NCBI RefSeq assembly: GCF_001274635.1
Contig: NZ_LBGV01000001.1
Coordinates: 806,001-870,000 of the forward strand
Direction: 5' to 3'
Length of the DNA stretch: 64,000 nucleotides
From: Persicobacter sp. CCB-QB2
Lineage (GTDB): Bacteria > Bacteroidota > Bacteroidia > Cytophagales > Cyclobacteriaceae
Shown here in pieces: positions 22,878 to 63,589 of the stretch. The notes below the pieces were generated by a model. That model made no database searches and was not told where the DNA came from. It worked only from the letters and a program-made list of their open reading frames with translations. Numbering within the stretch: the first letter of the stretch is position 1; the number at the start of each line of letters is the position of its first letter. The translations under genes were made by a program, and so were the position numbers.

Positions 22878-23639
22878 ATGCAGCAGATAGTCGACCTCAC
22901 TAAACCGATCAAAGAGTATCCGGATGACCCATGGTTCATGAAGGTGAAGATTAAACATAAGCCTCATCATAAAGCCAAGTGGCTGATTCGGCTTTTTGGC
23001 TTGCCTTTTAAATTATTTCCCAAAAGCTTTGTAGGCTGGGCCGATGATACCATAGAAAAAATGGGGGTACATGCCACTACGCATATTGATGCGCCCTGGC
23101 ATTACACGCCAAGCCTGAATGGCGAGAAAGCCAAAACCATTGAACAGATTCCTTTGGATATTTGCCATGGGGAAGGCCTGGTGATCGACATGTGCCATAA
23201 GCCAGATTTTGATCCTATTACAGCAGCGGATATTCAAAGTTTTTTGACGGAAAACGATTTGGAATTGAAGCCCGGAATGATTGTTCTGATTAAAACGGGG
23301 AGGGACAAATTGATCGGGACGAAAGATTACCCACATAGGGGTACGGGCATGTCTGCTGAAGCGACCCGATTTTTGATTGAGGCGGGCGTAAAGGTGATGG
23401 GCATTGATAGTTGGGGTTGGGATATCCCCCTAAAATATCAGATCAAAAAGGCCAAGCAGGATCAGAATGATCAGTTATTCTGGGAAGCTCATTTAGTGGG
23501 ACAGCAGCAAGAATATTGGCATATGGAGCAGCTGGTGAATCTTGATGCACTCCCACTTTCTGGATTTAAGGTAGGCGTTTTTCCCTTGAAAATTGTCGGG
23601 GCTTCGGCTGCGCCGGCAAGGGTAGTGGCGTTTTTGTAG
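22878..23639 (+). CDS. cyclase-family protein (kynurenine-formamidase-like metal hydrolase)
   Basis: About 253 residues, starting MQQIVDLTKPIKEYPDDP. The frame runs further up to 22821, but the extension is a hydrophobic AT-rich stretch unlike the family, so the ATG at 22878 is chosen. The HxxxHxD metal motif is present as HATTHIDAPWHY (about residues 62-73), with a later TGMSAEATRFLIEAGVKVMGIDSWGWD matching the family core. Members hydrolyse amide or ester bonds of small molecules in the cytosol; the substrate here is unknown. A decayed copy of this gene lies at 26380-26550, part of a tandem duplication. Confidence 0.88.
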   Translation: MQQIVDLTKPIKEYPDDPWFMKVKIKHKPHHKAKWLIRLFGLPFKLFPKSFVGWADDTIEKMGVHATTHIDAPWHYTPSLNGEKAKTIEQIPLDICHGEGLVIDMCHKPDFDPITAADIQSFLTENDLELKPGMIVLIKTGRDKLIGTKDYPHRGTGMSAEATRFLIEAGVKVMGIDSWGWDIPLKYQIKKAKQDQNDQLFWEAHLVGQQQEYWHMEQLVNLDALPLSGFKVGVFPLKIVGASAAPARVVAFL

Positions 23640-23661
23640 GAGGCTTAGACTGGAGGAAGGG

Positions 23662-23685
23662 CAGCTACTCATTTGTAAGTAGCTG
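23662..23685. terminator. bidirectional terminator between convergent genes
   Basis: A perfect stem CAGCTACT / AGTAGCTG with an eight-base loop lies between the ends of the cyclase and the unknown minus-strand gene. T-rich sequence follows on the plus side. Confidence 0.55.
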
Positions 23686-24567
23686 CTTTGAGGTTTTAAT
23701 ATCCGGCGTTATAGGTGTCAATGGCCCGATCTATATTTTTATAGTTCCCGATTTGGAAGGTCCAGCCCACCGCGATCATGCCAGCACCGATAAACACACC
23801 GGCGGGAATTTTTACATCAACAGATTCTCCCTGACTCGGGACGCTACCATCCGTGGAGGTGTCCATGTTCGAAAGTCCAGAGGCAATCATGATACCAGCA
23901 CCGAGGGTGTTGATCACGATTGTTGCTATATTATTGGCTTGGTATTTTTTTAGAGGTTGTAGGGCGGCGGGATCACTCTGCATTTCTTTCTTTAGGTTGG
24001 AGTAATTGGCTTTTAGTAAAGGCTCAAAACCATGATTAAAATACTTCACCTTAGTTTTATTCACCACTGTGCCTCCGGTCCACATTCCTGTGTGTGGATT
24101 GTAGTTTGGAGCTGTGTGCGCATTTACCTCCTTTGTGAAAACGTTTATTTTTCCAGATTTGGTCATTTTAAGATATCGGTGATTACCAGAATTCCCGATG
24201 AGTAATTCATTGGCGAATATTTCATTAAAATGACCATAAAATATTACCTCATTTGAACTGCGCTCTTTCCCGTCTATAAACAGTTTTCTTTTGCCCAATA
24301 CGGGTTTTTCTAAAGAAATCCTATGGGCTTTGATGACTTGAAGTTCCCGATTTACCCAAAATGCCCGCATATTATCTTTTTTGTCAGGAAATGAGGGTTC
24401 TTTTTTTTCTTTCAAGCTTCGTTTTCTACTGCTGTTTAAGATATCACTTACGGAAGTGAATCGAAGATCAATGTATTCACCTTTATAAGTGATGGCAATT
24501 AGATCTTCAGTGGAAATAAATAACTCCTCATCCGCTTTTTGAATTAGGATTTCTTCAATTTGAATAG

Positions 24568-24575
24568 ATAAAATT
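24568..24575. repeat. left target-site duplication of the IS256-family element
   Basis: ATAAAATT directly precedes the left inverted repeat and recurs directly after the right one at 25940-25947. Eight bases is the usual duplication length for the IS256 family. Confidence 0.9.
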
Positions 24576-25939
24576 GAGTTATGCCCGAAACTGGTGTTTG
24601 GGGGTTGAAAAATAGCGGCAAAATTGGTTGATTTAAATGCGAATAAAAAACTAACCAAAAATTTGCCACCATGAGCGAAATTAATCAAATCCCACCTATT
24701 ACAGAAGCAACTCACGATCTATTAACTGAAACTATTCGAGCGGGAGCCAAAGAAATCATACGCCTTGCGGTTGAGGCGGAGTTGGAGGAATATTTAAAGC
24801 AATTCCGCGACCTTAAAACTGATGATGGAAAAGCCGCAGTAGTCCGAAACGGTCATTTGCCGGAACGAGAAGTTCAGACAGGTATTGGCCCGGTAACGGT
24901 CAGAGTTCCAAAGATTCGTTCCAAAACAGGAGCCCCGGTTTCATTCCAATCGGTTCTGGTTCCGCCATATGTTCGAAAATCGAAATCACTGGAGGCTGCG
25001 ATACCCTGGCTTTACCTCAAGGGTATTTCAACGGGAGAAATGAATGATGCCTTAGAGGCCCTCTTAGGCCCCGGAGCCAGCGGTTTGTCTTCTAGCACTA
25101 TTTCCCGTTTAAAAACAGAGTGGGGCAAGGAATACGATGTCTGGCGAAAAGCCTCTTTAGAAGATAGAGAGTGGGCTTACATTTGGGTTGATGGCATCTA
25201 CAGTGGCCTGAGGAAAGAAGATGATAAACTTTGTGCGTTGGTCGTTATTGGAGTTGACGGTCAGGGAAGGAAGCATTTTTTAGCCATAGAAGATGGGGTC
25301 AGGGAGTCTAAACAAAGCTGGAAAGAGGTATTACTCGAATTGAAGCACCGCGGTATGAATGCTCCTAAACTAGCGGTTGGCGATGGTGCTCTGGGCTTTT
25401 GGGCAGCACTGGAGGAAGAATTCCCTAAAACAAAGGCGCAACGCTGCTGGATGCATAAAACCGGCAATGTTTTGAATTGCTTACCCAAATCGGCTCAACA
25501 AAAGGCTAAGGACAAAATCCATCAAATATGGATGGCCGAAACCAAAGACGAAGCAGATAAAGCATTCAACTTATTCATAGACACTTATGAAGCAAAGTAT
25601 CCAAAAGCTACAATTTGTTTACAAAAAGACCGTGATGAATTGCTGAATTTTTACGACTTTCCCGCCGAACATTGGCAAAGCATCCGAACCACGAACCCGA
25701 TAGAGTCCGCTTTTGGGACGATCAGACATCGTACGAAGCGATCAAAGGGTTGCCTGGATCGGGACGGAATGCTCCATATGATATTCAAACTCGGCATGTG
25801 TGCGGAGAAAAACTGGAATCGAATACGGGGCTATAAAACCATTGAAAAAGTAATCAGAGAAGTTAAATTTAAAGACGGCGAAGAGATCAAACAAGCCGCT
25901 TAACTTCGACCTCCTGAACACCACTTTTGGGCATAGCTC
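24576..25939 (+). mobile_element. IS256-family insertion sequence, complete
   Basis: A 1364-base element. Its left end GAGTTATGCCCGAAACTGG and the reverse complement of its right end, GAGCTATGCCCAAAAGTGG, form imperfect inverted repeats. It is flanked by the 8-base duplication ATAAAATT on both sides and contains one full transposase gene. It sits inside the minus-strand unknown gene and appears fully intact, so it is probably recent and possibly active. A truncated copy of its left end is at 63449-63589. Confidence 0.95.
24671..25903 (+). CDS. IS256-family transposase
   Basis: A 410-residue DDE transposase. The N-terminal DNA-binding part (about 1-150) includes VRNGHLPEREVQTGIGPVTV and VPKIRSKTG. 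The catalytic core has an Asp in YIWVDGIYSGL, a second Asp in LAVGDGALGFW and the Glu in TTNPIESAFGTIRHRTKRSKG, with the family's RCWMHKTGNVLNCLPK between them. Length and motif order match complete IS256 transposases. The start ATG lies 95 bases inside the left end of the element. Confidence 0.96.
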   Translation: MSEINQIPPITEATHDLLTETIRAGAKEIIRLAVEAELEEYLKQFRDLKTDDGKAAVVRNGHLPEREVQTGIGPVTVRVPKIRSKTGAPVSFQSVLVPPYVRKSKSLEAAIPWLYLKGISTGEMNDALEALLGPGASGLSSSTISRLKTEWGKEYDVWRKASLEDREWAYIWVDGIYSGLRKEDDKLCALVVIGVDGQGRKHFLAIEDGVRESKQSWKEVLLELKHRGMNAPKLAVGDGALGFWAALEEEFPKTKAQRCWMHKTGNVLNCLPKSAQQKAKDKIHQIWMAETKDEADKAFNLFIDTYEAKYPKATICLQKDRDELLNFYDFPAEHWQSIRTTNPIESAFGTIRHRTKRSKGCLDRDGMLHMIFKLGMCAEKNWNRIRGYKTIEKVIREVKFKDGEEIKQAA

Positions 25940-25947
25940 ATAAAATT
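25940..25947. repeat. right target-site duplication of the IS256-family element
   Basis: ATAAAATT, identical to the copy at the left border of the element. Confidence 0.9.
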
Positions 25948-26259
25948 TTGCAGGATATACTTTCTTCATTGAAAAAGAATAGCTTGTCTTGAGAAAAGCC
26001 GGATTGAGCAATGAATGAAAGCAATAATAGGATAGCGGTTTTTAGCTTCAAGGTGATTAGTGTAAGTAGGTTGAGTCTAAATATCTATATAAATTATAGT
26101 GAATAAAATATATTTTTTTATTAAAAATGTTTAAATATCAATTATTCAAGAGAATAAAAACATCCTTCGGGTGTCGGAGGAAGTAGATGTGCCTGTTTTA
26201 TCTTAAATTTTTTCCATTCCAAAAATCTTTTTCCTTTGCCCCGAAATTAAAATAATACA

Positions 26260-26379
26260 ATCGCAGAAATAGGACAGGATATTCAGCAGGCTAAGGCATT
26301 ATTAGAAGCGGGGGAGTTAGTGGCAATCCCCACGGAGACCATGTATGGGCTCGCAGCTAATGGTTTAAATGCGAAAGCA
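26260..26379 (+). pseudogene. 5' stub of threonylcarbamoyl-AMP synthase, duplicated copy
   Basis: About 120 bases match the first ~40 codons of the intact gene at 27809, including IGQDIQQAKALLEAGELVAIPTE in translation. The start codon is ATC instead of ATG, and the preceding promoter-like box reads TTCCTTTG where the intact gene has TACCTTTG. About 180 bases of matching upstream sequence precede it. It ends abruptly where the decayed cyclase copy begins, so this is the junction of a tandem duplication. Confidence 0.85.
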
Positions 26380-26550
26380 TATAAAAGTGAAGATTTAATA
26401 TAAGGCTCATTGTAAAGCCAAATGGCTAATTCGACTTTTCTGCTTCCCCTTTAAATTATTCCCCCAAAACCAGAAGGGTGGAGGAGATGATACCATTGAA
26501 AATTGCGAGTGGCTTCAGCCGTTCCGGTAATGGCATTGGCGTTTTTGAAA
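26380..26550 (+). pseudogene. decayed remnant of the cyclase gene, duplicated copy
   Basis: The left part matches the intact cyclase around its KVKIKHKPHHKAKWLIRLF region. A middle piece matches the DDTIEKM region, and the right end matches the last codons (ASAAPARVVAFL region). Most of the ~760-base gene is missing between these, through several internal deletions. It directly follows the threonylcarbamoyl-AMP synthase stub and precedes the second copy of the unknown gene, the same order as in the first unit. Confidence 0.8.
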
Positions 26551-26604
26551 TTGCTATAAAATGAAAAGACCGTTATTGATTTGAAATTAGCGGTCACTGA
26601 GAAT

Positions 26605-27600
26605 TTAATAGCCGGCGTTATAAGTATCAACCGCTTTATCAATATTTTTGGAATTCCCGATTTGGAAGGTCCAGCCCACCGCGATCAAACCAGCACCGAT
26701 AAACACACCTGCCGGAATTTTTACATCAACAGATTCACCTTGACTTGGGGTCCCTCCATTTGAGGAGGTGCCCGTGTCTGAGAGAAAGGAGGCGAGCATT
26801 ACTCCGGCCCCAAGGGTATTGATCAGAATGGTTAGCGTATTATTGGAGCGGTATTTTTTTAGGTGGCCTAAGGCTTCGGGGTCATCTTCCATTACGCTTA
26901 GGAGGTTGATCGATTTGACGGGCTGTATAGGCCCAAGCCCCTGATTAAAGTATTGTACTTTCCTCCGACCCATGTACATCGTTCCTCCTCCCATCATTTG
27001 ACCGTTGGGTCCCATGGTTGGGGCTGAAGGAGCATAGTCGGCTACTTCCTTTTCAAAAATATTGATTTTACCGAGTTTCACCAATTCCAAGTACCGGTGT
27101 TGAGCCCGGCTACCTGTAAGAGATTCGTTGGCATATATTTGATTGTACTCCCCATAAAATAATACCTCGTCGGAATCCAGGCGATTGCCATCGATATACA
27201 GTTTATTTCGGCCAATTAATGGATCTTTAAATTCTATTCTTTCTGCAGGAATGATCTGTCGGTTACGGTTTACCCAGAAAGCAGGATATTGGCGCATTGC
27301 CGTTTTTAATGGATTATCAACTTGACTGGATTTTTTGTAGACTTCCAATTCCATCATGATTTCCTGTACAGATGCAGACTGTAAGTCAAAGAGCTTGCCT
27401 TTGTATAAAAAGGAATTGAGGTTCTGTAGAGGGGCTACGGTTTCTTGTCCCCTGGCTATTAGGTGAATGGTGTCTTGGTCAATTTTGATGATTTCACAGT
27501 TTAAGGTATGTCCGGTCTTGGAATATAGGACATCCTGCGCCATTAATGAAGTTGTAAGAAATAACAAGAGCGCTAAGAAAAAAATAAATGGACGGTTCAT
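26605..27600 (-). CDS. secreted or membrane-anchored protein of unknown function, intact paralogue
   Basis: About 331 residues, starting MNRPFIFFLALLLFLTTSLMAQ, a signal peptide; an upstream ATG would only lengthen the N-terminus ahead of it. The mature part begins with a repeated beta motif (TGHTLNCEIIKIDQDTIHLI) often seen in Bacteroidota secreted proteins. It has a FWVNRNRQIIPAERIEF segment and a Met/Gly-rich loop (GPNGQMMGGGTMYMG). Two hydrophobic stretches come near the end, NTLTILINTLGAGVMLASFL and VFIGAGLIAVGWTFQI. It ends DKAVDTYNAGY, matching the disrupted copy at 23696-26051. The last two hydrophobic segments could anchor it in the inner membrane. No function can be assigned. Confidence 0.82.
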   Translation of the reverse strand: MNRPFIFFLALLLFLTTSLMAQDVLYSKTGHTLNCEIIKIDQDTIHLIARGQETVAPLQNLNSFLYKGKLFDLQSASVQEIMMELEVYKKSSQVDNPLKTAMRQYPAFWVNRNRQIIPAERIEFKDPLIGRNKLYIDGNRLDSDEVLFYGEYNQIYANESLTGSRAQHRYLELVKLGKINIFEKEVADYAPSAPTMGPNGQMMGGGTMYMGRRKVQYFNQGLGPIQPVKSINLLSVMEDDPEALGHLKKYRSNNTLTILINTLGAGVMLASFLSDTGTSSNGGTPSQGESVDVKIPAGVFIGAGLIAVGWTFQIGNSKNIDKAVDTYNAGY

Positions 27601-27779
27601 CGCTATAGCTATAAGTAGGTAAGGCCGCAATATAAGATTTTTTAATAGTTGAATAAATATATTTTTTTATTAAAAATGTTTAAATATCAATTATTCATGT
27701 GAATAAAAATATCCTCCGGGTGGCGGCGGAAGCAGATGTGTCTGTTTTATCTTAAATTTTTTCCATTCCAAAAAACTTT

Positions 27780-27787
27780 TACCTTTG
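27780..27787 (+). promoter_or_regulatory. possible Bacteroidota -7 promoter box for the threonylcarbamoyl-AMP synthase gene
   Basis: TACCTTTG matches the TAnnTTTG consensus about 21 bases before the ATG. The duplicated stub has lost the first two bases of the box (TTCCTTTG), in keeping with decay there. Confidence 0.45.
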
Positions 27788-27808
27788 CCCCGAAATTAAA
27801 ATAATACA

Positions 27809-28771
27809 ATGGCAGAAATAGGACAGGACATTCAGCAGGCTAAGGCATTATTGGAAGCAGGGGAGTTAGTGGCAATCCCCACAGAGACCGTATATGGGCT
27901 CGCAGCCAATGGTTTAAATGCAAAGGCCGCCGCAAAGATTTTTGAAGCCAAGAATCGTCCCTCCTTCGATCCATTGATTTGCCACACCAACTCCATGGAA
28001 AAGGTGGAAAGTTTCACTACTAACATTCCAAAGAAAGCTTACGCCCTGGCGGAAAAATTTTGGCCGGGTCCTATGACCATGCTTTTGGATCGAGCGCCGG
28101 TGGTTCCGGATCTTACTGTGAGCGGACTCGGAAGAGTAGGGGTGCGTATTCCCGATCATGAATTGACCCTGAGTCTTTTAGAACAGTTGGATTTTCCATT
28201 GGCAGCGCCTTCGGCCAATCCTTTTGGTTACATCTCCCCAACCACTGCCGCTCATGTCAATGATCAATTAGGGGAAAAAATAAATTATATCATTGACGGA
28301 GGTCATAGTGAAGTCGGGATTGAATCCACTATTATTGGGTTCGAAAACGATGAGGCGATCATTTACCGCCTTGGAGGTTTGTCTGTAGAGGAAATTGAGG
28401 ATGTTGTTGGTCCGGTAAAGATCAATGCTCATAGTTCTTCCAATCCGGCAGCCCCTGGCATGTTGAAGAGTCATTATGCTCCTTCCTGTCCTGTAATTTT
28501 AGGGGAGGAATTGAAAGCGATGGCCCAGCAATATGCAGGTAAAAAAGTGGGTGTTTTGGGCTTTGATTATGGTCTGGAAAATATCCCTGCAGAGGATCAA
28601 TTCGTGCTTTCGGTCAGAGGTGATCTGAATGAAGCCGCCACCCGTCTGTTTATGGGTTTACGCTATCTGGATGGTCAAAATCTGGATTTAATAATTACGA
28701 CTTTGGTGCCTGATGAAGGCTTAGGACGGGGTATTAACGACCGTCTGAAGCGTTCGGCAGCCAAAGGATAA
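27809..28771 (+). CDS. tsaC: L-threonylcarbamoyladenylate synthase (TsaC/Sua5 type)
   Basis: A 320-residue protein making threonylcarbamoyl-AMP for the t6A modification of tRNAs that read ANN codons. The YrdC-like domain covers about residues 5-190 with VAIPTETVYGLAANGLNAKAA, KNRPSFDPLICH, KFWPGPMTMLL, VGVRIPDHE, APSANPFGYISPTTAAHV and GIESTIIGF. The C-terminal Sua5 domain follows a linker with AAPGMLKSHYAPSCPV and ends GRGINDRLKRSA. The extra domain makes it the longer Sua5 form. It lies in the second unit of a tandem duplication whose first unit keeps only a stub, so this is the functional copy. Phosphoglycerate kinase follows 54 bases downstream. Confidence 0.95.
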   Translation: MAEIGQDIQQAKALLEAGELVAIPTETVYGLAANGLNAKAAAKIFEAKNRPSFDPLICHTNSMEKVESFTTNIPKKAYALAEKFWPGPMTMLLDRAPVVPDLTVSGLGRVGVRIPDHELTLSLLEQLDFPLAAPSANPFGYISPTTAAHVNDQLGEKINYIIDGGHSEVGIESTIIGFENDEAIIYRLGGLSVEEIEDVVGPVKINAHSSSNPAAPGMLKSHYAPSCPVILGEELKAMAQQYAGKKVGVLGFDYGLENIPAEDQFVLSVRGDLNEAATRLFMGLRYLDGQNLDLIITTLVPDEGLGRGINDRLKRSAAKG

Positions 28772-36671: not shown

Positions 36672-37001
36672 ATGGTACCCTTTTCGGTTGGAGATTACAC
36701 CTCCGGAAATATTGTGGCCAATTACGATGGTAATAAAAATCAAAAGGAAATTCCTTTGTATGGAAGTGGCCCTTTAGGAATTCGCTTTGTGGATGACATC
36801 ACCGGAAATAATAGCACCAATGTCTTTGAGTATAAAGACCATTTAGGCCCCGTTCGTGCCCACGCCTTTTGCAATGGCGAAAGCATGGTTCATGACCAGT
36901 GGCGGGTTTATTACCCCTTTGGTCTGCAAATGGCCAGGGACTTAGATGCTAAGCACAAAAGCCGATTTGGCTATCAGGGAGATTTCCCCCACTGGTCGTA
37001 G
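36672..37001 (+). pseudogene. fragment of an RHS/YD-repeat protein
   Basis: A 109-codon frame with VFEYKDHLGPVRAHAF, WRVYYPFGLQMARDL and KSRFGYQGDFP. These match the conserved RHS-associated core of Bacteroidota (DHLGNVR ... YYPFGM ... GYQGEF). In intact genes this core comes near the end of a protein of over a thousand residues and is followed by a variable toxin tip. Here there is no upstream repeat region, and the frame stops where the repeated DUF1703 leader sequence begins. It is therefore an orphan piece left by rearrangement. Confidence 0.75.
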
Positions 37002-63448: not shown

Positions 63449-63589
63449 GAGATATGCCCGAAGAAAGTGGTGTTTAGGGGTTGAAAAATAGCGGCAAAAT
63501 TGGTTGATTTAAATGCCAATAAAAACCTAACCAAAAATTTGTCACCATGAGCGAAATTAATCAAATCCCACCTATTACGGAAGCAACAC
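63449..63589 (+). mobile_element. IS256-family element, truncated left end
   Basis: About 140 bases match the left end of the complete element at 24576, from GAGATATGCCCG through the leader to the first ~16 transposase codons (MSEINQIPPITEAT). The match stops where the DUF1703 leader begins at 63591. No right end or target duplication is seen, so this is a relic cut by a later rearrangement. Confidence 0.88.

Follow-up and report, generated by a model that had tools for sequence, protein, structure and literature searches.

Two head-to-tail units of the same three genes, a cyclase-family gene, a gene here called unk, and the threonylcarbamoyl-AMP synthase gene tsaC, lie next to each other in Persicobacter sp. 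CCB-QB2 and have worn down to one working copy of each gene, while their surviving parts have diverged to very different extents. Judged from these sequence comparisons, one untouched duplication would not give such an uneven pattern. We propose, with about an even chance of being right, that the block was duplicated in tandem long ago, in a history complicated by recombination or by an older unk paralogy, and that a deletion at the joint, decay, and the insertion of an IS256-family element followed. The window, that is, the whole stretch of 64,000 nucleotides that was analysed, corresponds to positions 806001-870000 of contig 1 in this genome (G000), and the coordinates below are those of the window.

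22878-23639, plus strand: intact cyclase-family gene of unit 1 (PF04199, 113.7 bits against a cut-off of 23.1)
23696-26051, minus strand: unk1, split by an insertion element (aligned part 50% identical to unk2 in amino acids)
24568-24575 (left) and 25940-25947 (right), no strand: 8-bp target site duplication, direct repeat ATAAAATT on both sides
24576-25939, plus strand: IS256-family insertion element of 1364 bp (NF033543, 319.1 bits against a cut-off of 150)
26095-26259, no strand: tsaC upstream region of unit 1 (150/165 identical to that of unit 2; -7 promoter box altered)
26260-26379, plus strand: tsaC 5' stub of about 39 codons, no start codon (109/119 identical to tsaC)
26380-26550, plus strand: cyclase remnant of unit 2 (stop-containing 5' piece joined, after an internal loss, to the 3' end)
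26605-27600, minus strand: unk2, intact open frame of 331 aa
27645-27808, no strand: tsaC upstream region of unit 2, with TACCTTTG at 27780
27809-28771, plus strand: intact tsaC, threonylcarbamoyl-AMP synthase of the Sua5 type (TIGR00057, 179.3 against 123.2 bits)

In unit 1 the intact cyclase gene is followed by the interrupted unk1, convergent with it on the minus strand, and by the tsaC stub; in unit 2 the cyclase remnant is followed by intact unk2, intact tsaC, and then pgk, which was named from its sequence and conserved place. Gene order and orientation are thus the same in both units, as a single tandem duplication would leave them. Three direct repeats, identified by repeat search and blastn, align the units. 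The first, at 26096-26378 and 27645-27927 (92% over 283-284 nt, E 3e-116), comprises the tsaC upstream region and the stub, and the second, at 23583-23953 and 26493-26862 (371 nt, 74.5%, E 1e-64), is the cyclase 3' end running into the 3' part of unk. The third, at 22938-23059 and 26381-26502 (122 nt, 79%, E 2e-23), is the 5' part of the cyclase. The similarity between the units is far beyond chance. The initial annotation had described a decayed tandem duplication with the fragments in this order, similarity that can be aligned between the units, and one working copy of every gene kept in different units (cyclase in unit 1, unk and tsaC in unit 2). These descriptions were borne out, as was a duplicated and decayed block, but the simple one-event history was not.

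The tsaC product also matches PF01300 and PF03481, with both the catalytic and the Sua5 C-terminal domains above cut-off. For the cyclase, identity as an arylformamidase (KynB) was considered and rejected, as TIGR03035 scored 36.8 against 223.05 bits and only the wider PF04199 reached its cut-off; matches to the intact gene were found in 34 of the 390 family genomes, our own included (E<=1e-80), other genera among them. The unk2 product has an N-terminus that is signal-peptide-like by eye and matched nothing in Pfam or NCBIfam at E<=0.001. It is only about 50% identical to the unk1 product, and its fold, predicted from two sequences, was of low quality (mean pLDDT 41). Weak relatives of unk occurred in 16/390 family genomes (E<=0.001) and in 10/395 class genomes, our own counted in each, and a search of plasmids returned no match. 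Elsewhere in the window, a phytase-family gene (PF02333; 18631-19811, minus strand) that adjoins a TonB-dependent receptor gene is split over two frames (ORFs of 135 aa and 259 aa), through either a frameshift in the gene or an error in the sequence.

The interruption of unk1, which the initial annotation had left unnamed, is a complete IS256-family element with a transposase frame at 24671-25903 and imperfect terminal inverted repeats, which agree at 23 of their first 30 positions by visual count. IS256-family elements produce target duplications of 8-9 bp. The 3' part of unk1 ends at 24575 and its 5' part extends from about 25940 to 26051; from the frames and the 8-base target duplication, we infer that the gene was open before the insertion, with a probable TTG start codon, read by eye. 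The genome contains three full-length places of the element at 100, 100 and 96%, the unk1 insertion included, plus one partial match. This partial match, at 63449-63587 of the window (869449-869587 of contig 1 in G000), is 93% identical to the first 136 bases of the element.

A single duplication event would leave similar neutral divergence across the whole unit, and this was not found. Identity between the units was 91-92% for the tsaC upstream region and the stub, about 80% for the cyclase remnant, about 57% for the core of unk, and 58% for the spacer between cyclase and unk (31/53 identical, with 3 further columns gapped). Within unk it fell from 82% in the last 60 codons through 63, 57, 56, and 48% to 42% at the 5' end. 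The step in identity near 26095 is sharp, whereas the change inside unk is a gradient without a sharp break. The silent sites followed a similar course: the proportion that differed was 0.28 in the stub (7.5/27, start codon left out), 0.41 in the unk C-terminus, 0.44 in the cyclase remnant (27 codons), and 0.60-0.77 in four regions of the unk core (about 114/166). The last values are near saturation; as a scale, tsaC differs from that of a same-genus genome at 0.70 of silent sites.

In Fisher tests that took sites as independent, with half counts rounded and p values uncorrected for their number, the tsaC upstream region differed from the cyclase-unk spacer (p 4e-7) and from the adjoining 39 nt (p 4e-7), the stub from the unk core at silent sites (p 2e-4), the unk C-terminus from the core (p 0.005) and not from the stub (p 0.42), and the cyclase remnant from the stub and upstream region together (p 0.025). 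As far as such counts can date them, a common age would fit the stub, the cyclase remnant, and the unk C-terminus, and it appears that the unk core could not share it.

Upstream of tsaC, the doubled region that had been put at about 180 bases is indeed present twice, but over 165 nt (150 identical), and the similarity ends abruptly, with the next 39 nt matching at 21/39. As had been claimed, the stub lost both its start codon, with ATC at 26260 where tsaC has ATG, and its promoter box: TACCTTTG at 27780 upstream of tsaC has become TTCCTTTG at 26231 upstream of the stub, so that the TAnnTTTG box on the stub side lacks its A. The second of these losses holds on the basis of the Bacteroidetes -7 consensus, which a passage of PMC6847099 gives as TANNTTTG. 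The noncoding regions between unk and tsaC (26095-26259 and 27644-27808) differ by 9%, against 28% at the silent sites of the stub; being better kept, this region between divergently oriented genes may carry regulatory sites for both unk and tsaC. The well-kept stretch is also the upstream side of unk1, and its constraint may come from unk1. The upstream region is not a dispersed repeat, since a search of our own genome returned nothing beyond these two positions. All RNA families stayed below their gathering scores across the window, and folding of both upstream regions gave nothing usable.

The initial annotation had the stub truncated at birth in a single duplication, a view that neither the uneven noncoding and silent divergence nor the codon pattern of the stub supports. 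Among its 39 codons there are 10 differences from tsaC, nine of them at third positions and one at a first position (binomial P 0.011 at an even share). When a stub dead from birth was simulated against a constrained tsaC (5000 runs in each of nine settings), at least 9/10 third-position differences arose in 0.10-0.38% of runs, a test that was conceived post hoc and concerns 10 differences in one short sequence. This rarity suggests that the stub probably was coding for much of its life and once lay within a working copy. Polarised on the two same-genus genomes by hand count, eight differences fell on the stub side, one on the tsaC side, and one was unclear, and this 8 to 1 polarity is as for a decaying copy and would count against a once-coding stub. 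The polarity is unsure, because silent sites are near saturation and the stub letter was the commoner of the two at 3/10 sites in 108 tsaC rows (some genes perhaps twice). The stub does pass directly into the cyclase remnant at 26379/26380, which had been read as the duplication joint; if the stub once worked, that joint is probably a later deletion instead.

The cyclase remnant starts near cyclase codon 21 and has lost about 0.5 kb before its 3' end. Over the compared stretch it was 82% identical to its intact neighbour, against 55-70% to 20 orthologues (21 rows, one gene twice, from 32 cyclase loci after dropping those without an ungapped match over the stretch). The remnant is thus nearer to the intact cyclase of its own genome than to any orthologue, which points to a cyclase pair that arose within this lineage. 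Polarised on the same 20 orthologues, 12 of the 15 differences were derived in the remnant, none in the intact gene, and 3 were ambiguous. Third positions account for 9/15, and the remnant, unlike the stub, therefore gives no clear sign of coding constraint.

The initial annotation had expected related genomes to reveal a single-copy ancestor, and none was found at the 80 tsaC loci, the 32 cyclase loci, the weak unk loci, or in the three genomes, our own included, that make up a thin genus sample. The other two (G001 and G002) have tsaC followed by pgk, with 80% and 90% tsaC protein identity, and gave no unk match at E<=0.001 and no cyclase match at E<=1e-40. There tsaC is preceded by a 311-aa gene that by inspection looks like a potassium channel and whose best match in our genome lies at 1963403-1964305, about 1.1 Mb from tsaC; given this distance and the absence of the block from both genomes, the place appears rearranged. 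These two genomes are about 6.1 and 5.7 Mb in size and ours is 3.87 Mb at an estimated completeness of 91.5%; genome reduction is possible. An ORF starting at 36672 on the plus strand of the window has matches of ~60% identity upstream of tsaC, at two places in G002 and one in G001, and perhaps belongs to a repeated protein family.

At the best 80 of 123 related tsaC loci (flanks up to 10 kb, some limited by contig ends), pgk was downstream in 20, at a distance of at most 250 bases in 16 of them and of about 1.2 kb in the other 4, and a cyclase or unk match was near tsaC in none. Beside the cyclase, 0/32 loci from other genomes had an unk or tsaC match (flanks of about 1.5 kb), and the weak unk loci (L003-L005, L129-L137, and L139-L150; flanks up to about 1.5 kb) had no cyclase or tsaC match. 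Of the 33 other genomes with a cyclase match, the 13 that matched best were searched for tsaC, which lay on the same contig as the cyclase in 4 and on a different contig in 9; on one contig the two genes were about 20 kb apart in G012, where the stretch around them held no unk match, and at least 0.8 Mb apart in three. No relative with an intermediate stage was seen among the loci examined. With no unk or tsaC neighbour at 32 cyclase loci and no block in G001 or G002, the cyclase-unk-tsaC block apparently came together within this lineage.

In the history that we propose, an old tandem duplication of this block would have produced a second tsaC that was initially a coding gene. A later deletion, with its joint at 26379/26380, would then have reached from within that tsaC into the second cyclase and taken most of the former and the 5' end of the latter. 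The unk copies would be much older than their flanks or foreign to them, either because they already were separate paralogues or because recombination made the block a mosaic, by gene conversion of the tsaC ends or by replacement of one unk body. As the last step, the IS256-family element would have inserted into unk1. The arrangement, the uneven divergence, the codon pattern of the stub, and the insertion with its target duplication are direct observations, from which we infer the order of these events, the deletion joint in place of a birth joint, and the kind of recombination. Counting against this history are the gradual change of identity inside unk, the weak coding signal of the cyclase remnant, the constraint that unk1 may have put on the well-kept noncoding stretch, and the lack of an intermediate stage in any relative examined.

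Rather unlikely, in our judgment, is the model of the initial annotation, in which one tandem duplication with its joint between tsaC codon 40 and cyclase codon 21 was followed by decay and by fast divergence of unk. The order and the joint fit it exactly and without the extra deletion that our proposal needs, every gene retains one working copy, and the remnant and the stub both look like the faster-changing copies. Fast protein change alone does not raise silent divergence, so fast evolution of unk does not explain a core near saturation beside a stub at 0.28, nor does the model account for noncoding parts at 91% and 58% or for the third-position pattern of the stub.

We regard it as unlikely that two diverged haplotypes were joined, with one unit arriving by recombination from a related strain and the units being diverged alleles. 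The stub resembles an allele that kept its function during its divergence, and the absence of the block from both other genus genomes at a rearranged place would suit such an arrival. Even so, the unusual divergence of unk would still have to be accounted for, and no donor-like genome was found among those searched. A doubtful extension of this reading would make the stub what is left of a complete second tsaC that functioned until recently, with the diverged alleles of different strains joined head to tail; if true, an essential gene was for a time present in two copies and then lost one of them. An assembly artefact around an insertion element that has two further copies in the genome, at 100% and 96% identity, is very improbable, since matching 8-bp target repeats stand on both sides, as a true insertion gives, and the units differ in sequence and hence are not one unit assembled twice.

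The biology is ordinary genome decay, from which no special function follows and by which no new system is indicated. On a small scale it illustrates the wearing down of a duplicated block: from its codon pattern, a stub can be recognised as born truncated or as having lost its end later, and a mosaic history can lie behind a tidy gene order. Compared with known systems, the insertion element shares with the IS256 family (Mutator-type transposase) its family match, terminal inverted repeats, and 8-bp target duplication, without notable difference. The known arrangement of TsaC/Sua5 beside pgk recurs here with pgk downstream of tsaC, but among the loci examined, our own genome was alone in having the cyclase and unk upstream. 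Tandem gene duplication with differential loss is matched in the head-to-tail order, the truncated copies, and the single working copy per gene; the difference is that the parts here diverge too unevenly for a single untouched event.
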